Below are positions 1,621-24,658 of a stretch of 33,981 nt of DNA, piece by piece; position 1 is the first letter of the stretch, and the number at the start of each line of letters is the position of its first letter. This DNA comes from Nanobdellota archaeon. Its GTDB lineage: Archaea > Nanobdellota > Nanobdellia > Woesearchaeales > JACPBV01. The DNA lies in contig JAHJAV010000008.1 of the NCBI GenBank assembly GCA_018813685.1, forward strand, positions 1-33,981, in the 5' to 3' direction. A model generated the notes under the pieces. That model had not been told where the DNA came from. It worked only from the letters and a program-made list of their open reading frames with translations, and ran no database searches. A program made the translations under genes and the position numbers.

Positions 1621-2634
1621 ATCGATTTTAGAAAGGTAATAAGTTTTGGAAAGAATTCCTTGATTGTTTCACTGCCAAAGCAGTTGGTAGATAGGAATAA
1701 GGTAGGTAAGGGCGATCTGATTTCTATGGATGAGAATAAAGAAGGGCTTTTGATAAGGACAAACAAGGAAGAGCCTAAAAAGGAGGAACCTAGATCTATT
1801 GTGATAAACTCAGAAGATAAAAGTTTAGTCCACTTAAAGACAGAGATTGTTTCTGCGTATCTTGATAATTATGACCTAATTGAGGTTATGTCTAAAGACC
1901 TGAAGACAAACTCTCCAGAGATAAAAAAGATATTGCAGGATCTGGCGGGGATGGAGATAATAAACCAGAGCTCTACCCGGATTGTTGCAAAGGATCTTAT
2001 TAATATAAAAGAGATTTCTATAGTGACATTGATAAGAAGGATGGACACTATTGTTAGGTCAATGATGCAGGATGCAATAGAGTGTTTTGATGGAGTTGAT
2101 CATGCACAAAGCGTATTCCATATTGATGAAGAGGTTAATAGGCTGCACTTTTTGACTTATAGGATAATAAGAAGCGGATTAAAAGATGTGAGGATTGCAA
2201 ATTCATTGGGAACAAATGCACTTAAATTACATTCAGATCACACTGTTACAAATAAGATAGAACGGATAGCTGATAATACTAAGAGGGTGTGCAGATTTTC
2301 TAATGAAACTAAGCTGGATGAAAAATGGAGAAGTGAGCTTAAGAGGGCATTAAAAAATATCAAACAAAGCTATTTGGATGTTATGAAATCATATTATACA
2401 AATGATGTGCAGATTGCCCTTAAAATAGAGGAAGATAATAAAGAGATAATCAGGGAGTGTGATAAATTTTTTGTTAAGCACGACCATAAGGAATTAAAGT
2501 TTGATGACAATATCAGGAAAGGTGTATGCGGATTTAGGGGATCTTGCGGAGCAACAGCGAAGATAATAGAGAACATGAAAGAGATGGCTTCTTGTGTGAG
2601 ATATATTGCAAGAACTATAATCGGGGGAGGTTAA
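1621..2634 (+). CDS. AbrB/SpoVT N-terminal domain plus PhoU-domain regulator (probable AUC start)
   Basis: The track starts at TTG 1660, but the frame is open back to 1621 and encodes DFRKVISFGKNSL before IVSLPKQ, which completes the AbrB/SpoVT swapped-hairpin domain typical of archaeal PhoU-type regulators. No ATG, GTG or TTG exists there; the codon in the Met position is ATC at 1621, preceded by GGGGTGGTTTAA with the usual six-base spacing from GGTG. I call 337 aa from that codon. After a linker (~35-65), residues ~100-335 are the helical PhoU-like region. Family members are thought to act in phosphate or metal-responsive control as DNA-binding PhoU proteins. Divergent from the zinc mini-protein run. 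Function of this one is not certain. Confidence 0.8.
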   Translation: MDFRKVISFGKNSLIVSLPKQLVDRNKVGKGDLISMDENKEGLLIRTNKEEPKKEEPRSIVINSEDKSLVHLKTEIVSAYLDNYDLIEVMSKDLKTNSPEIKKILQDLAGMEIINQSSTRIVAKDLINIKEISIVTLIRRMDTIVRSMMQDAIECFDGVDHAQSVFHIDEEVNRLHFLTYRIIRSGLKDVRIANSLGTNALKLHSDHTVTNKIERIADNTKRVCRFSNETKLDEKWRSELKRALKNIKQSYLDVMKSYYTNDVQIALKIEEDNKEIIRECDKFFVKHDHKELKFDDNIRKGVCGFRGSCGATAKIIENMKEMASCVRYIARTIIGGG

Positions 2635-4257: not shown

Positions 4258-4755
4258 TTATCTCTTTAAATCTTCTCTTACAGCCTCTATAAACTCCTTT
4301 GCTTCATCAACCAGTTTCTTTACTATGGATGTATCCAGTATTGTTTCTGTGCCGTACTGGAATTTTTCTCTCAGATTTATTATTTCATCGCTTGCTGATT
4401 TTTCATCAAATGAGGCTATTTTCTTGAGCTGCTCCAAGCTTATTCCTGATTTTTTCTCTTTTATCAAAACCTCGACAGCTGCAAAAGTGCATTCCTGATT
4501 CCTAGATTCATATCCATTCTTTGCCAGAATAGCGAGCAGGCAATGATACATTGTGTAGAAGCATGCACTAACGGCCCAGTCCACAAAGCCGCCTTTCATA
4601 AGGTATTGCATAACAGTAAGATTGTGAATAGCCTTTTTTATGTAGTCATTTGCACTTTCAACAGAGGGCTGCACCTTCTTAAGCCCCCTATGCTTTTCTC
4701 CCTCTTTTTCTGCTTTGTTCAAGCACCATCTCAATTTGTTTTCAATCTGACCCAT
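4258..4755 (-). CDS. HEPN-domain protein paired with MNT nucleotidyltransferase
   Basis: 165 aa, all helical, with the HEPN-like core DWAVSACFYTMYHCLLAILAKNGYESRN at about residues 60-87. In HEPN/MNT pairs the HEPN partner is often an RNase toxin with an R-x4-6-H motif; I find no such motif here (the arginine is followed by NQECTF, no histidine), so catalysis is doubtful. The start overlaps the MNT gene by 14 bases, giving translational coupling, and GAGGCGAT precedes the ATG. An alternative is a non-toxic nucleotide-binding HEPN subunit. Confidence 0.8.
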   Translation of the reverse strand: MGQIENKLRWCLNKAEKEGEKHRGLKKVQPSVESANDYIKKAIHNLTVMQYLMKGGFVDWAVSACFYTMYHCLLAILAKNGYESRNQECTFAAVEVLIKEKKSGISLEQLKKIASFDEKSASDEIINLREKFQYGTETILDTSIVKKLVDEAKEFIEAVREDLKR

Positions 4756-5335
4756 TTTTAATCGCCTCGACTATTATTTCAGCCCCCCATAAAATCTTGC
4801 CGGTTTTTATTATGTCCAGGATTACCTTATCGCCTTTTTGGATATTTTTCAGCAAATCTTCTTTAGTCTGCATCAATTCATGTATTTTCTTTGGCTTAAG
4901 GGACTTTATTTTGCTTAATTCCTTGCTTACCCTGCTGAAATCTTTTTTTTCTAAGATAACCAATATATCTATATCGTTAGCTTCCTTTCCTTTAGTCAAT
5001 ACCGAACCAAATAAAACGCAACATAGGGTACTATCTTTCAAAGGGTTAAGATCTTCTGCCTGTATCTGTGCGTAAGGACTCAAATTATTCTGTATTAACA
5101 CCAACTCTGAAAGCTTTGCTCCAATCTCTTCATTCAAGTTTGGCTTGTAATATAGGGCATTGCCTATCTTCTCAGGCACAACTGCATTGATTTTTTCAAG
5201 TTTTTTTAGTATCTTGTATGCTCCCATAGGGCTTAGCTCTAGCCTTTTTCCTATCTCATTTACGCTGTTCCTTTCTTGGAAATTCCTTATCAAAAAGTCC
5301 ATTACCCTTGCTTCGTTTTGTGTTAAGCTTTGCAA
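4742..5335 (-). CDS. Winged-HTH fused to MNT nucleotidyltransferase
   Basis: 197 aa. Residues 1-70 are a winged helix (NEIGKRLELSPMGAYKILKKLEK); residues ~100-195 hold the Pol-beta-type nucleotidyltransferase core FGSVLTKGKEANDIDILVIL, i.e. GS-x9-DxD, with the catalytic acid pair. TTG start supported by GAAGGTGATTTAATTG, with six bases between GGTG and TTG. MNT partners of HEPN toxins act as antitoxins by adenylylating or AMPylating the toxin; the HTH fusion suggests it also represses its own promoter, which contains two tandem palindromes. Confidence 0.85.
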   Translation of the reverse strand: MQSLTQNEARVMDFLIRNFQERNSVNEIGKRLELSPMGAYKILKKLEKINAVVPEKIGNALYYKPNLNEEIGAKLSELVLIQNNLSPYAQIQAEDLNPLKDSTLCCVLFGSVLTKGKEANDIDILVILEKKDFSRVSKELSKIKSLKPKKIHELMQTKEDLLKNIQKGDKVILDIIKTGKILWGAEIIVEAIKNGSD

Positions 5336-8096: not shown

Positions 8097-9755
8097 TCAA
8101 TCTATCTTTAATTCCTTTTTCCAAAAGCTGCAGAGCTTCTCTACTTTTTTGCTGGAAATGCCTAAATAGTTCTCTGGGCTTTTCAGGATTTCAATCTGTT
8201 TTTTTGTGAATTTGGCTAAGTATGGCTCTATGCTTTTGTCTTTGAACAAAAGTTCTCTGAATGGTTTTCCTGTCTGCTGGCTTTTTAGGGTTAGTTCTCT
8301 GGTGTATTCGTGAGCATCCGGGTGGTTGTGGGCAGCTAACAATATGTATACTGGCTCTGCTGTTATCATCTCTTTGTTCATGTCGAAATTCTTTTTTAGG
8401 TTGTTTTTGTCTACAACTAATTTAGACATTGTCCTGTTTAGCCTATTTATTGAGGTGTAGAGCCCTGCTAAGATTTCTGGGATGAACCTTGATGTTGCAG
8501 AGTTGGTTAAGTCTCTCTGGTGCTCGCATATCTGGTCCATGTATAAGGTGTTCATCCTGGGCATGAATTCTTTCCACATAGATTTTACATTTTCAAAGTT
8601 AATTGGATTTCTTTTGTGAGGCATTGTTGAAGAGCCTACTTGTTTTGCTTCAAAGAATTCACCAACTTCACCTATCTCTGATCTTTGTAAGTGCCTCATA
8701 TCATCTGCTAGATTTGCCAGGACGCCAAAACAGCTTGTTACTGAATGGATGAAGTCAGCCATGTATTCTGCTTCAACTACTTGTGTAGAGATTGGAGAGG
8801 GTTTTAGCTTTAATTCCTTTAATACATCTGCTTCAAAGCTTTCTGGGTCTTCAAAGAATAATGATGATGCATTGTAAGCACCTACTGCTCCTGCTATTTT
8901 TCCCCTTAAGTTGTTAGCTGTTCTTTGTATTGCTTTTATCCTTGTCCCTAATCTTGAAACATATTGGGCGATTGCAAAGCCAAATGTGATAGGCTCAGCG
9001 TGCTGACCGTGGGTTCTTCCTATCTGCAATGTGTTTTTTTCTCTTAGTGCTAAATGGATTAGTGTTCTTTCTAGGTTAGTTATTGCTGGGATTAGGGTGT
9101 CATTGGAGAATTCTTTGAATCTTGCAGCATCTGCTGTGCAGATTATATCGTGAGATGTAGTTGTGAAATGAACATATGGCTTTGCTTTGTCAGAAACTCT
9201 ATTTCTTATTGAGTTTGCTAAAGCTCTGATGTTGTGTTTTATCCTGTCTTCTTCTTTGTAGACTTCCTGAGCTGTTACTTGAGTAGAGGCTGCTTGGACT
9301 TCGTTTGCAACTGATTTTGAGCAGATGCCTTTTTTAGCTAGTGTTCTTGTTAATGCTGCTTCTACTCTTGCTAAGTATCTTACTGCGCCTTCTTCAGACA
9401 GGTAAGGCTTTAGCTTTTGTTTTGTCTTTTCATCTCTTCCATAATATCTGTAGTCTAATGGGGAGATGTTTTCAAATAATGGGATCGTTTCTTCTTTTTC
9501 TTCTGGTTGTTTGGTTTCCATGAGGTTTTCTATGTTCTTTAGGAGGTTGTTGTTTTTGTTTAATTTTATTATTTTTCTGTTTTTATCCTGTATTTCATTT
9601 ATTATATTATGTTTTTTGAATATCTGGATTGTTTGATGGACTTTTGCTGGACTTATCTTTAATCGTTCAGCTATTTCTCTTATGTGCAATGATTCTTTTT
9701 CCAATAGGTTTAGAATTTCAATGTTCTTTTTTGTAAAGATTTTAGTTATTTCCAT
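8097..9755 (-). CDS. purB: Adenylosuccinate lyase with an N-terminal helix-turn-helix domain
   Basis: 552 aa from ATG 9755; the track start at 9788 is unlikely because GAGGTGGCTAAATATG puts a strong Shine-Dalgarno seven bases before 9755 and a TATA box further upstream. Residues ~1-75 form a winged helix (ILNLLEKESLHIREIAERLKISPAKVHQ), then a charged linker, then the full lyase from ~90. The fumarase-superfamily signature SSTMPHKRNPINFENV is present, as are GRTHGQHAEP and TTSHDI. The enzyme splits SAICAR to AICAR and adenylosuccinate to AMP. The usual protein is ~430-480 aa with no HTH, so this may be an enzyme that also binds DNA (inference). Confidence 0.93.
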   Translation of the reverse strand: MEITKIFTKKNIEILNLLEKESLHIREIAERLKISPAKVHQTIQIFKKHNIINEIQDKNRKIIKLNKNNNLLKNIENLMETKQPEEKEETIPLFENISPLDYRYYGRDEKTKQKLKPYLSEEGAVRYLARVEAALTRTLAKKGICSKSVANEVQAASTQVTAQEVYKEEDRIKHNIRALANSIRNRVSDKAKPYVHFTTTSHDIICTADAARFKEFSNDTLIPAITNLERTLIHLALREKNTLQIGRTHGQHAEPITFGFAIAQYVSRLGTRIKAIQRTANNLRGKIAGAVGAYNASSLFFEDPESFEADVLKELKLKPSPISTQVVEAEYMADFIHSVTSCFGVLANLADDMRHLQRSEIGEVGEFFEAKQVGSSTMPHKRNPINFENVKSMWKEFMPRMNTLYMDQICEHQRDLTNSATSRFIPEILAGLYTSINRLNRTMSKLVVDKNNLKKNFDMNKEMITAEPVYILLAAHNHPDAHEYTRELTLKSQQTGKPFRELLFKDKSIEPYLAKFTKKQIEILKSPENYLGISSKKVEKLCSFWKKELKID

Positions 9756-9827
9756 ATTTAGCCACCTCAGTAAGAATAAATCGTTCATTATTTATAAACT
9801 TTTCTATATTTTAGTATGTAATGTTTA

Positions 9828-13018: not shown

Positions 13019-13801
13019 CTACACTGATCTGATTTCCATGTCGCTTTGGTTTACTTTTTCTTTTTGTCTTTCTCTGTATCTGTTTAGTTTTAGAGTGTAT
13101 TTGTCGTTTGTGTTCATTATTTCTATAGCAGCTAAAGCGGCGTTTCTTCCATTGTTTAGGCCTACCCACAAGCCATGCCTGCTGTGCTTTAATACGTTTA
13201 AGGCAGCTTCTGCTTTGTCATCATCTTTCATTGATAATGGGCAGTAGATGACTAGCTGGTCTTTTTCAGGAATGTTTTCATCTAAGGATACAAATTGTAT
13301 ATTGATGCTGTCATTGTCACATGATTCTGATTCATTTGGGGCAATTTCAAATTCACTTAGTATTTCTTTTGCTTTTTTTAGAGCATCATTAGGCGATTTG
13401 CTTACTAGGTTTATTGACAGATAAGGTTTTAGCAGCTTTACTGCGTTTTTTACAGCTATATCTACTTGGCCAACTCCTACGCTTAATACAGGGATTCCAG
13501 GCGGCATTTGCATGATTGATAATAAGGCATCTAGGCCTTCATAGCTGCCATGGCATGGAACTCCTATAATCGGTTTTATTGTTTTAGAAGCTACTACTCC
13601 GGGTAAAGCTGCTGACAATCCAGCACCTGCAATTATTACTTTGCAGTCTGTTTTTATTATCTCGAAAAGCTCTTCTGGAGTCCTATGAGCAGAACTAATG
13701 CGCATCTCAACACTGACATTGCGTTTCTTCAGGCCTTTTACTATCTCCTTGTATACAGGCGCATCTGATTTAGAACCGAAAACAACCAATACATCTGGCA
13801 T
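13019..13801 (-). CDS. purE: AIR carboxylase / N5-CAIR mutase with a C-terminal half-repeat
   Basis: 260 aa against ~165 for a standard PurE. Residues 1-~150 are complete: VFGSKSDAP, SSAHRTPEEL, IIAGAGLSAALPGV, GVPCHG, IMQMPPGIPV. Residues ~185-260 (VIYCPLSM..., then VGLNNGRNAALAAIEIMNT) resemble the last third of a second PurE domain, so this looks like a tandem duplication whose second copy has lost its active-site half. Forms CAIR for PurC. Own promoter (TATATAAA near 13840) and GGGGTGAAGTATAATG ribosome site. No purK in the window. Confidence 0.9.
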   Translation of the reverse strand: MPDVLVVFGSKSDAPVYKEIVKGLKKRNVSVEMRISSAHRTPEELFEIIKTDCKVIIAGAGLSAALPGVVASKTIKPIIGVPCHGSYEGLDALLSIMQMPPGIPVLSVGVGQVDIAVKNAVKLLKPYLSINLVSKSPNDALKKAKEILSEFEIAPNESESCDNDSINIQFVSLDENIPEKDQLVIYCPLSMKDDDKAEAALNVLKHSRHGLWVGLNNGRNAALAAIEIMNTNDKYTLKLNRYRERQKEKVNQSDMEIRSV

Positions 13802-15382: not shown

Positions 15383-16912
15383 TCAATGTTTAAAAAGTCT
15401 GACGCCGCTAAAAACCATTGCTATCCCCAACTCATTACACTTGGCAATAACTTCTTCGTCCTTTTTAGCGCCGCCTGGCTGAATGATAGACTTAATTCCT
15501 GCTTCAGCAGCTGCTTCGACTGCATCTGGGAAAGGGAAGAAAGCGTCGCTGGACATGCTCCCTCCGTTGGCTCTTCCTGTGGATTTTCTTTTTGCTATGA
15601 TTGAAGCATCCACTCTTGACATCTGGCCAACACCCATACCGTAGCCAGTCTTGTTTTTAGCGAATACAACTGAGTTTGATTTTGTGTGCTTGTTTACTTT
15701 CCAGGCAAACCTTAAGTCTTCTAATTCCTTTTTAGTTGGCTTTCTTTTTGTTACGCATTTAAGCTCGAGCTTTTCTATATCTGGCCATCTTCTTGATTGC
15801 AATAATATTCCACCTACTACTTTTTTCATGTCATAGCCTTTGTCTGATCTTGTTAATCTACCCACTTCCAGGATCCTGCAGTTTTTTTTGTTGTCTTTAA
15901 GGAATTGGAGAGCGTCTTTGTCAAAGTCTGGAGCTATTAATAGCTCTATGAATTTTCCCTTTGTCATCTCTGCTATTTTCATTGTGCATTTTCGGTTCAT
16001 AGCTATTACACAGCCAAATGCAGACATAGGATCAACATTATAGGCATCTTCAAATGCTTTTTCGATTGTTTCTCTTTCAGCTACACCGCACGGATTAGCG
16101 TGCTTTATGATTGCAACAGCAGGATTTTTGAATTCTTTTACTAATTCCAAAGCACCATCACCGTCAAATATGTTGTTATAGCTTAGTTCCTTGCCCCATA
16201 ACTGCTTTGCATTTACGATAGATGTTTCATTTAGCATAAGCTCTTTGTAGAAAGCTCCTCTCTGGTGAGGGTTTTCTCCGTATCTTAAGTTCTGGAGCTT
16301 TTCAAAAGGAATGATCATATCTTTTGGGAATTCGTCTGTTTCAAGGTATTTCGCAATCATGCTGTCATATGCAGCTGTTTTTTCAAAGACTTTTTTAGCC
16401 AGATTCTTTCTTTCTTCTATTGAGATACTTTCTTGTTTTTTGAGCTTGTCTAAAATTTTAGAGCAGTCTTTTGGGTCTGTAAGCACAATAACATCGTGGA
16501 AGTTTTTAGCTGCGCTTCTTATCATTGAAGGGCCGCCTATGTCTATCATCTCGATAGTTTCTTCAAAGCTAAGGTTCTTTTTTACGGTTTCTGCAAATGG
16601 ATATAGGTTGACAACAACCATATCAATCATCTCTATCTTGTTGTCTTTTGCCTGCTTCATATGTTCTTTGTTGTTTCTTAAAGCTAATAATCCGCCATGT
16701 ACTTTTGGATGCAGTGTTTTTACCCTGCCATCCATCATCTCAGGAAAGCCAGTGTAGTCAGAAACATCTTTTACTTTAATGCCAGCATCTTTCAATGCTT
16801 TTGCTGTTCCGCCTGTTGATAGGATTTCGATTCCTAACTTATCGAGTTCTTTAGCGAATTCTACAATTCCTGTCTTGTCAAAAACTGATATCAATGCTCT
16901 TTTTATTGTCAT
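15383..16912 (-). CDS. purH: Bifunctional AICAR transformylase / IMP cyclohydrolase
   Basis: 509 aa, usual length. Residues 1-~190 are the MGS-like cyclohydrolase (LSTGGTAKALKDAG, HPKVHGGLLA, IDIGGPSMIRSAAKN); ~200-509 the transformylase (LRYGENPHQRGAFY, IIKHANPCGVA, PMSAFGCVIAMNR, GVGQMSRVDA, SDAFFPFPDAV). It formylates AICAR with 10-formyl-THF and closes IMP. Most archaea use PurP and PurO instead, so this bacterial-type enzyme suggests transfer. GGAAGGTAA precedes the ATG. Second gene after purN, 28 bases apart, likely co-transcribed. Confidence 0.96.
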   Translation of the reverse strand: MTIKRALISVFDKTGIVEFAKELDKLGIEILSTGGTAKALKDAGIKVKDVSDYTGFPEMMDGRVKTLHPKVHGGLLALRNNKEHMKQAKDNKIEMIDMVVVNLYPFAETVKKNLSFEETIEMIDIGGPSMIRSAAKNFHDVIVLTDPKDCSKILDKLKKQESISIEERKNLAKKVFEKTAAYDSMIAKYLETDEFPKDMIIPFEKLQNLRYGENPHQRGAFYKELMLNETSIVNAKQLWGKELSYNNIFDGDGALELVKEFKNPAVAIIKHANPCGVAERETIEKAFEDAYNVDPMSAFGCVIAMNRKCTMKIAEMTKGKFIELLIAPDFDKDALQFLKDNKKNCRILEVGRLTRSDKGYDMKKVVGGILLQSRRWPDIEKLELKCVTKRKPTKKELEDLRFAWKVNKHTKSNSVVFAKNKTGYGMGVGQMSRVDASIIAKRKSTGRANGGSMSSDAFFPFPDAVEAAAEAGIKSIIQPGGAKKDEEVIAKCNELGIAMVFSGVRLFKH

Positions 16913-16940: not shown

Positions 16941-17555
16941 TTATGCTAATATGGCCACTTTATTCCCTTCTACTTTTATCTTTCCATCTCTGAACAGTTC
17001 AATACCTTTTATTATGATGTTCTGCTCTGCTTTCTGAACCTTTTCTTTTAATGAATCTATTGTTTCATCTTCTTCTACAGGAACTTCTTTCTGTAGGATG
17101 ATTGGGCCAGTGTCTGCGCCTTCATCTATGAATATCAGAGATGCTCCTGTTATTTTGTCTCCATTTTCTAATACTGTTTCGTGAACGCCTTTGTCCATGC
17201 CACCTGCGTATTTTGGCAATAAGCTGGGATGTATGTTCATGACTTTGTTAAGCCATTTTTGGACGAATTGTGAAGACATCAATTTCATATAACCTATTAG
17301 CAGAACTAAGTTGATTTTGTGTTCTTGTAAGAGCTTATCGACTTCCTGGTCGTATTCTTCTCTTGTTTTTCCTTTTGGGTCAAGGAAGATTGCTTTTATG
17401 TTATGGGCTCTAGCTCTTTCAAGGATATAAGCTGATTCCTTATTGCTAAGAACAAAAGAAATCTCAACATCTTTTAAATTGCCGTATTCTATAGAATCAA
17501 TTACTGCCTGCAAATCAGTTCCTTTTGTCGAGCCTAGTACGGCAATCTTTAAAAT
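16941..17555 (-). CDS. purN: GAR transformylase (probable AUU start)
   Basis: The track starts at TTG 17513, which removes the first strand. The frame continues upstream as LKIAVLGSTKGTDLQAVIDS, the normal PurN N-terminus with its phosphate-binding loop. No ATG, GTG or TTG exists there; after the upstream TGA the first codon is ATT at 17555, six bases after GGTG of CGGTGGTTTGAATT. I call 204 aa from that codon. Active-site residues: MNIHPSLLPKYAG (catalytic Asn-His) and GASLIFIDEGADTGPII with the aspartate. Transfers formyl from 10-formyl-THF to GAR. Leads the purN-purH unit; TATA TTTATAAAC at 17589-17597. Confidence 0.92.
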   Translation of the reverse strand: MLKIAVLGSTKGTDLQAVIDSIEYGNLKDVEISFVLSNKESAYILERARAHNIKAIFLDPKGKTREEYDQEVDKLLQEHKINLVLLIGYMKLMSSQFVQKWLNKVMNIHPSLLPKYAGGMDKGVHETVLENGDKITGASLIFIDEGADTGPIILQKEVPVEEDETIDSLKEKVQKAEQNIIIKGIELFRDGKIKVEGNKVAILA

Positions 17556-17570
17556 TCAAACCACCGTATA

Positions 17571-17616
17571 CAAAGAAAATCTATATAGTTTATAAATGTT
17601 ACTAGAAAATCTTTGT
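17571..17616. promoter_or_regulatory. Divergent purN / aldolase promoter with repeated AGAAAATCT
   Basis: AGAAAATCT occurs at 17574-17582 and 17604-17612, 30 bases apart, bracketing the purN TATA box; outer bases ACAAAG and CTTTGT also form an inverted pair. This is a candidate operator for the purN-purH unit and the divergent aldolase gene. No regulator can be named. Confidence 0.45.
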
Positions 17617-17666: not shown

Positions 17667-18605
17667 ATGCCATCAACAAAACCAATTAGTGGGAATATTG
17701 TGCCTTATGTTACTTTGTTTAATCATAGTGGTAATGTTGATTATAAAGCTATGTATGCTCTTTTTCAGGCAACTGCTCCTTTTGTGGATGCAGCTTTTGT
17801 TGGCGGCGGCACTGGCCAGGGATGGATGCTGGATCCTCAAGATCTTGGTGACATTGTTAAACTTGCAAAAGGCGTATTTAATCCGAAGCCAGTTATAGCC
17901 GCTATTTGGGAAGTACCTCTCTCATGCTCGCAACCTATAGTTAGAAAGGGAGAAGATTATGCAGGAGTTTTGAAAGCAAGAGGGGTAGATAGTTTGGTGA
18001 TTCCTCCGCCAATAACTGAAACTCCATTGGGAGCTAATGATATATTACAATATTATTCTCGTATAGATAACTTATTCGGAGATATTAGAAAGATCGTATA
18101 TAATAATCCCGGATTAACACATAATCCTTTGACATTGCCTCTTTCTTTGGATATAGCCAGTGCTGTTGAGCTTGGCGGTTATAAAGACAGTTCAGGCGAT
18201 TTAGGCTTTCTTGACAGCCTTCTGCAATTGTCCGAGGGATGGTTTGATGTATACTTAGGTTCAGAGGCTCTTGCAGCTCAGTTATTTCCAGATTCTAATT
18301 ATCAAGGAAAATTTAAAGGGGTTGTGGGAAGCACTGGAAATGCTGCGGCAGAATTCATGGGCGAGTTGTGGAATGCTTATGCGCAAGGCAATTTAGAAAG
18401 ATCCAGACGATTGGGTGATACACTTCTTGAGGCTTTGCCTCTAATTAATGGGCCTAGCAATTCTGAGATTGTGCAAAGATTGACATTTGCACTTAACTCT
18501 GCGGGAATAGGGAGTCCAGATACCCTTTACAATCCAGCTTCTGATGCTGCAAAGGGGGAAGTTATTTCCGGCTTGAAGATGCTTCAGGATGCACTTAAGG
18601 GTTAG
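17667..18605 (+). CDS. DapA/NanA-family class I aldolase
   Basis: 312 aa TIM-barrel. GNIVPYVTLFN at the N-terminus, the GGGTGQGWMLD substrate loop (family GxTGE, here GTGQG), the catalytic tyrosine in IVYNNPGLT and the Schiff-base lysine in GGYKDSSGD. Family reactions include dihydrodipicolinate synthesis, N-acetylneuraminate cleavage and 2-keto-3-deoxygluconate aldol cleavage; with no lysine genes nearby, a sugar-acid aldolase is as likely as DapA. TATTTAAAA 27 bases before the ATG suggests a leaderless mRNA. The only plus-strand gene between 10.9 and 19.7 kb; ends eight bases from the convergent folD. Confidence 0.85.
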   Translation: MPSTKPISGNIVPYVTLFNHSGNVDYKAMYALFQATAPFVDAAFVGGGTGQGWMLDPQDLGDIVKLAKGVFNPKPVIAAIWEVPLSCSQPIVRKGEDYAGVLKARGVDSLVIPPPITETPLGANDILQYYSRIDNLFGDIRKIVYNNPGLTHNPLTLPLSLDIASAVELGGYKDSSGDLGFLDSLLQLSEGWFDVYLGSEALAAQLFPDSNYQGKFKGVVGSTGNAAAEFMGELWNAYAQGNLERSRRLGDTLLEALPLINGPSNSEIVQRLTFALNSAGIGSPDTLYNPASDAAKGEVISGLKMLQDALKG

Positions 18606-23641: not shown

Positions 23642-24658
23642 CTAATAAATCCTAATCCTTCCTTTTTGTATCTCCCACCTGCCGATGCTAGAGGAGCCGC
23701 CCTTTATGATTCCTTCTTTCTTGTATTCATCAATCATTTTTCCTGTTTTCTTTAGCTGCTCAACAAAGTATTTTGCAAGCTTGCTCTCTCTTCTTTCAAT
23801 AGCTTTTGCGAGAGCATTGCTGTAAGACCTGTGATTTTCGCTAAAGAATATTACTGGCATAAAAAAAGACTTCATAAGCAAAGCGTTGAGCAAAATCCTG
23901 CCTACCCTACCATTGCCATCCTGAAATGGATGTATCTGTTCGAACTTCCAATGAAACTTAAGCGATATAATGGGGGTGTATTCCTTTTTCATTCTGCCCT
24001 TAAGCCAAGATATAAGCATATTAATCTCTTCCTTTACTTTCTCTTTGGGTGTTGTTATTGATGCTATTCCGCCTGCGCCTACTACATTATTTGCCGCTTT
24101 GTACTTTCCAGCTATTTCATCATCAATCCCTTTAAACAACAGCATATGGATTTTTCTCAGTGAGGCAGAATTCCATTTCATATCCTTTGAAAAAGCAAAG
24201 TTTATTGCATCCAGTGAGTTTACAATTTCTATGTCTATTTTAGTCCTAGGTTTTTTTCTTTTGTTTATTATTTTTTCAATGTCCCCCCGTGTTACTCTGG
24301 AGCCTTCAGCGCGATTCGAGTTTAAAACGAAAAGGGTGACAAATAAGTCTTTAAATAGCTTGAATTCATTTTCGTTCAATTCATGGTTGATGAAGTGATA
24401 CCAAGCACGAGTGCTTTCAATTCTTTGTATGCCATTCGGAGGAAAATAATCTAATATTTCTTTACCCATTTTTTGGGCAGCTATTTTACCAATCTCCTCG
24501 AAATAGCCTTTTAGCTTTTCTTTCAGCTCTTCCTGAGAAAGAAGCTTCTTTCCTAAGTACCGTGTGAACAGTATCCTTTTTCCTTCTGTAGTTCTGAATG
24601 GGAATTCGAAGTAGTAATACTCTATGCCCTTGATTACCTTTTTTCTTATATATTGCAT
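23642..24658 (-). CDS. Fic-domain AMP-transferase-like protein
   Basis: 338 aa. The Fic motif HPFQDGNGRVGR (residues ~240) is intact, including the catalytic histidine, so it can probably transfer AMP or another nucleotide group to a protein. An SNRAEG in the preceding helix matches the autoinhibitory (S/T)xxxE(G/N) motif. The N-terminal ~90 residues are a family N-domain (FPFRTTEGKRILFTRYLGKK), and the C-terminus is basic. TTTATAAAT 28 bases before the ATG suggests a leaderless start. It lies between the 31-bp repeats, separating the cyclo-ligase from glyA, which suggests later insertion. Target unknown. Confidence 0.92.
   Translation of the reverse strand: MQYIRKKVIKGIEYYYFEFPFRTTEGKRILFTRYLGKKLLSQEELKEKLKGYFEEIGKIAAQKMGKEILDYFPPNGIQRIESTRAWYHFINHELNENEFKLFKDLFVTLFVLNSNRAEGSRVTRGDIEKIINKRKKPRTKIDIEIVNSLDAINFAFSKDMKWNSASLRKIHMLLFKGIDDEIAGKYKAANNVVGAGGIASITTPKEKVKEEINMLISWLKGRMKKEYTPIISLKFHWKFEQIHPFQDGNGRVGRILLNALLMKSFFMPVIFFSENHRSYSNALAKAIERRESKLAKYFVEQLKKTGKMIDEYKKEGIIKGGSSSIGRWEIQKGRIRIY

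Follow-up and report, generated by a model that had tools for sequence, protein, structure and literature searches.

The infC gene, which encodes the initiation factor IF3, starts with AUU in E. coli and with AUC in Streptomyces, and sigR of Streptomyces is initiated at a GTC codon that limits its output (PMC5472188). AUU, AUC and AUA starts are rare: a reconstruction over 36 groups of prokaryotes yielded one AUG-to-AUU switch among 61,358 ancestral AUG starts (PMC5622118). For Archaea, a review of 2020 names AUG, GUG and UUG as start codons (PMC7531240), and according to a review of 2021, retrieved in a non-exhaustive search of the open-access literature, elongation and termination are the only steps for which archaeal non-canonical translation has been demonstrated (PMC8211752). 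Archaeal initiation led by a Shine-Dalgarno sequence is exemplified by aEF1A of P. abyssi, whose leader reads GGAGGUGAUUUAA-AUG (PMC6237735). In E. coli and H. volcanii, loss of KsgA/Dim1 favours proteins made from non-AUG start codons; N. equitans lacks KsgA/Dim1 (PMC7897474).

The window analysed here is a 34-kb contig (33,981 nt; G000:C21) of the draft genome G000 (1.56 Mb, 128 contigs), whose nearest named relatives are Nanoarchaeia/Nanoarchaeota/Woesearchaeota MAGs. It carries a purine operon headed by purN, coding for phosphoribosylglycinamide formyltransferase (16941–17555, minus strand; 204 codons from an ATT to the stop at 16941). The purN product scored 170.6 bits against the equivalog HMM TIGR00639 (cut-off 150.1), its residues 3–195 aligning with profile positions 2–191/192, and matched PF00551 as well. 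Residue 3 pairs with residue 2 of the E. coli and human GAR transformylase chains of known structure, and the N-terminal residues run unbroken into the domain from about residue 2. PurN is firmly identified, and its gene evolves under purifying selection with strong constraint (dN/dS of about 0.06 between G000 and the related genome G003, synonymous sites being near saturation). Downstream, purN adjoins purH (15383–16912, minus strand; NF002049, 718 bits; TIGR00355, 646 bits), which starts with ATG and is followed on the same strand by folC, purE, purC, purB and purM; upstream, a divergent dapA-like gene (17667–18605, plus strand) limits the available region to 111 nt. In the adenylosuccinate lyase encoded by purB (8097–9788), the family match begins only at residue 112, and its first 100 residues weakly resemble HTH regulators of the MarR/ArsR type. 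PurE (13019–13801) scores just under its family cut-off (146.1 vs. 149.6) and has about 130 additional C-terminal residues. A gene at 23642–24658 shows a weak match to the Fic domain (protein adenylyltransferase-like).

On the minus strand, GGTGGTTTGA at 17565–17556 is followed directly by the ATT at 17555–17553, and the start region as a whole reads TTTATAAA...ATAC-GGTGGTT-TGA-ATT-TTA-AAG-ATT-GCC-GTA-CTA-GGC. It comprises, all on this strand, a TATA-like box (TTTATAAA, 17589–17596), the Shine-Dalgarno sequence GGTGGTT (17559–17565), a TGA stop (17556–17558) which abuts the ATT and shuts an in-frame GTG at 17564–17562, and the proposed start codon (17553–17555), the sole in-frame AUN or NUG codon after the stop at 17556 and before codon 15. 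The TATA box, measured from its first T, lies 31–32 nt from GGTG, as in purN of G003, G018, G034 and relatives with ATG or GTG starts; the transcript is predicted to begin at or just before GGTGG, with a leader of roughly 10 nt, and GGUGGUUUGA immediately precedes the AUU. The spacing GGTG-6-ATT corresponds to the modal spacing GGTG-6-ATG in the genome sample of G000.

A scan for start codons from 45 nt before the ATT to 60 nt after it revealed, in the purN frame, a TTG at –18 and a GTG at –9, which run into the TGA stop before the ATT after five and two codons, respectively. A TTG at –4 lies in the wrong frame for purN, and frameshift entry from a TTG or ATG at this position (TTTGAATT, ATATGAATC) was rejected, since the codon is missing in G036, G054 and G034 and the frame is shut after 14 codons. 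ATG is absent in all frames between the TATA box and codon 15, and the first usable canonical codon in frame after the ATT is TTG at codon 15, a start at which would cut the first strand and the conserved GSTKGTDLQ loop of PurN. The initial annotation had proposed that purN begins at AUU and that its conserved N-terminus lies upstream of this TTG, and both proposals agree with these data. Its statement that the ATT is the only possible initiator holds for AUN and NUG codons, but not for the TTA at codon 2, which aligns with Met1 of E. coli PurN and has two mismatches to a CAU anticodon.

Checking the relatives for ATG, as the initial annotation had suggested, was done by locating PurN by tblastn and reading codon 1 at each locus. 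Codon 1 is ATC in G003 (80% identity; JANQNH010000001; GGTGATATGA-ATC) and G018 (78%; JAGLMD010000068; GGTGATTTGA-ATC), where the TGA before it is kept as well, and in G034 (52%), where a canonical codon is absent back to its TAG and the GGTG is out of frame. The next canonical codon occurs only at position 30 in G003; G018 has an ATG at codon 4. Five further relatives have an ATH triplet at codon 1 (ATA in G036; ATT in G054, G179 and G343; ATC in G340), and in each an upstream GTG or TTG in frame is a possible start; in G054, G340, G343 and G179, the G of GGTG opens an in-frame GTG three codons before codon 1. Other relatives carry ATG or GTG, among them G168 and G173 (loci L172 and L175), with an ATG/GTG start behind the same TATA box and a GGTGGTTTT leader. 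In G344 and G342, codon 1 encodes Thr, so that purN must start at GTG; since, moreover, purN of G345, from the genus of G018, begins ATG-GTG-GTT-GGA, purN start sites do shift. Some relatives thus truly start purN at GTG, and an ATH triplet in such relatives need not be the start. The GTG of G344 and G342 (L197, L207) is spaced 33 nt from the TATA box, counted from its first T, and is probably leaderless; relatives with the same promoter spacing start purN 9 nt further on, which amounts to a start-site shift within one family. In a PurN tree, G000, G003, G018 and G345 form one clade (100/98) beside an ATG-starting sequence, and G034 belongs to a separate clade (98/92).

Like purN, infC has an AUU or AUC start that is kept instead of AUG in distant relatives. 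However, infC is bacterial and autoregulated by IF3, a factor not known from Archaea; PurN is a purine enzyme rather than a protein acting on start-codon fidelity, and no fidelity factor is known behind its gene. sigR shares with purN a non-canonical start outside the translation genes, but this start is GTC, bacterial and IF3-repressed, and its effect on output has been shown. Leader shape and spacing, the 16S tail and the initiator anticodon are the same for purN and P. abyssi aEF1A; the difference lies in the start codon, AUG in aEF1A and AUU, AUC or AUA in purN and its relatives.

A second gene in the window, of the AbrB/PhoU type (1621–2634, plus strand), starts with ATC (1621–1623) where most homologues have ATG. 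Its leader, GGTGGTTTAA-ATC, contains the Shine-Dalgarno sequence GGTGGTT (1611–1617) followed by an in-frame TAA (1618–1620), so that the resemblance to purN pointed out in the initial annotation is real. The G003 orthologue reads GGTGGTTCAA-ATT at the same position, and because an ATG lies two codons further along and a GTG is in frame as well, a conserved ATH start is firm for purN only. The search for further such starts at Met positions, covering 499 kb of G000, added a sugar nucleotidyltransferase gene, GGTGATTTAAG-ATC-AAG-GCA-ATA-ATT-CTT (IKAIILAAG), in which the ATC stands at the Met position two codons after a stop, with a canonical codon absent between them; residue 2 of its product aligns with residue 2 of RmlA of known structure. 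Less certain is a D-Ala ligase relative, GGTGGTTAAA-ATA, whose G003 orthologue has ATG and for which a GTG at –3 is a possible start. Weaker candidates in G000 are a lemA gene and a gene in which HTH_24 is fused to pyruvate kinase (L244:14053-15726, G000:C48). The latter has a possible ATC start behind GGAGGTTTAAA, and a TTG ten codons upstream lacks a Shine-Dalgarno site. A small winged-helix gene of G003 carries ATC at the position of an ATG in G000.

Genome-wide counts were taken over roughly 499 kb of G000, or a third of that genome, and over 615 kb of G003; the signal comes from few genes. At ORF 5' ends of G000 without a canonical start, codons behind a Shine-Dalgarno sequence were enriched for ATH (4/73 for ATH vs. 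3/553 for other codons; Fisher p = 0.005), a value that is indicative only, because two of the four hits are the window's own cases which prompted the test; the rate in G000 is moreover biased upward, as part of the sampled contigs were chosen for motif hits. The same test in G003 gave no significant enrichment (p = 0.13). Tolerant initiation in the lineage, as proposed initially, finds only partial support: the genome has additional cases, but ATH starts account for no more than about 1% of the genes sampled.

Three components of the initiation machinery appeared ordinary. The 3' end of the 16S rRNA is standard (GGATCACCTCCT) and therefore can pair with GGUGGUU, with two G-U wobbles; an altered anti-Shine-Dalgarno sequence was thereby dismissed as a candidate. 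A deviant aIF1 was likewise discarded, since aIF1 looks ordinary on inspection by eye. None of the initiator tRNA genes of G003 and G000 showed an anticodon different from CAU: the anticodon is CAU in G003, and the G000 gene has CAT in a GGCTCATA context and is split by introns. This tRNA-Met gene (L333, G000:C82:4634-4823) apparently contains several introns, one of them in the T loop (GGTTCAAA|...|GTCC), and the initiator tRNA genes of G054, G036 and G034 carry insertions too. The leader GGTGGTTCAAAT, present at 1611–1623 of the window, in G003 (L128) and in purN leaders, is similar to the initiator tRNA's T arm (GGTGGTTCAAATCCACC), probably by coincidence.

KsgA/Dim1 is nearly universal elsewhere. 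Among 59 members of the order examined, the assemblies of which are incomplete, only six had a full-length KsgA/Dim1. It was not found at full length in G000, G003, G018 or G034, whose partial hits resemble different methyltransferases; in G000 the hit is such an enzyme, scoring 21 bits against TIGR00755 (cut-off 171). The KsgA-positive control G008, a single genome sample, showed two equivocal ATH sites, too few events for a comparison. Absence of KsgA/Dim1 is a plausible permissive factor for ATH starts, the link being correlative. Here, as in the deletion strains, a missing KsgA/Dim1 goes with non-AUG starts; those experiments, unlike the present case of a natural absence, concerned annotated non-AUG starts and an engineered loss in E. 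coli and H. volcanii (PMC7897474). Loss of KsgA/Dim1 alone cannot explain why AUH is kept at purN, because most of the order is without the enzyme.

In the most probable reading, and a rather likely one, purN is translated from the AUU in a Shine-Dalgarno-directed manner with the ordinary CAU initiator tRNA, as would be the AUC and AUA starts of relatives and of a few other genes. Pairing of GGUGGUU with the 16S 3' end would position the 30S subunit on the purN mRNA, and the CAU initiator tRNA would accept AUU, or AUC and AUA in relatives and in the few other genes, with a mismatch at the third position; we infer that initiation in the cell occurs at this codon with Met inserted. The start region itself, the lack of an in-frame alternative, AUH codons in independent genomes and the modal Shine-Dalgarno spacing make the case for AUH initiation at purN, judged from sequence, a strong one. 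More speculatively, the lack of 16S dimethylation by KsgA/Dim1 may ease AUH starts, and a weak AUH start may have been kept so that the amount of PurN, the leading product of the pur operon, stays low or under regulation.

Two alternative explanations take the GTG at 17564–17562 as the point of entry. The mRNA might be leaderless, with the GTG at or close to its 5' end, and the ribosome might start there and read through the TGA at codon 3. The position of the GTG roughly coincides with the transcript start predicted from the TATA box, the corresponding GTG of G344 and G342 serves as a leaderless start, and GTG-N-TGA is kept in G000, G003 and G018. Yet TGA terminates 108 of 377 long ORFs in the genome sample and is therefore not a sense codon here, by which a TGA-recoded genetic code was eliminated as well; the GTG is out of frame in G034, the gene at 1621 would require readthrough of TAA, and the stretch from the stop to the ATC of the nucleotidyltransferase contains no start codon, so that readthrough seems improbable. 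Alternatively, GUG-GUU-UGA might be translated as a two-codon leader ORF, the terminating ribosome reinitiating on the adjoining AUU. The arrangement GTG-x-stop-ATH indeed occurs at purN of three genomes and at 1621, but it is missing in G034 and the nucleotidyltransferase, and the common GGTG-N6-start leader gives rise to the same shape: 4/18 GGTG-N6-ATG genes in the genome sample carry stops at –1/–2. A gene at 4742–5335 (minus strand) with a canonical TTG start behind GGTGATTTAA has the leader shape of purN and the gene at 1621, namely GTG-ATT-TAA-TTG, and since purN, P. abyssi aEF1A and this gene share the shape GGUGAUUUAA-start, the preceding stop probably comes with this common leader instead of testifying to readthrough. 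Reinitiation is accordingly considered unlikely, to much the same degree.

Initiation downstream, at the TTG of codon 15 or the TTA of codon 2, would take advantage of the first canonical codon or of the position aligned with Met1 of E. coli PurN. Neither codon lies behind a Shine-Dalgarno sequence at normal spacing, however; the TTG would forfeit residues aligned with the solved GAR transformylases from their residue 2, G003 purN has no canonical codon before position 30, and TTA is doubly mismatched to CAU, which renders a downstream start very improbable. A base error or assembly artefact at 17553 might be suspected in a draft fragmented into 128 contigs, but the probability is negligible: the initial annotation had argued against a sequencing error from the second gene of the same anatomy in this genome, and a base error is now ruled out because independently assembled relatives keep ATC at the same position, two of them after the same TGA.

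A broader proposal is that an archaeal group without KsgA/Dim1 uses AUU, AUC and AUA in about 1% of its genes, and that the purN start has long been kept as a translational control point; this is conceivable, albeit doubtful. Were an AUH start conserved in a metabolic gene of Archaea, non-canonical initiation would reach into this domain as well, and it would follow that gene callers truncate such genes. The group would provide a natural setting in which to ask whether 16S dimethylation guards the choice of the start codon.
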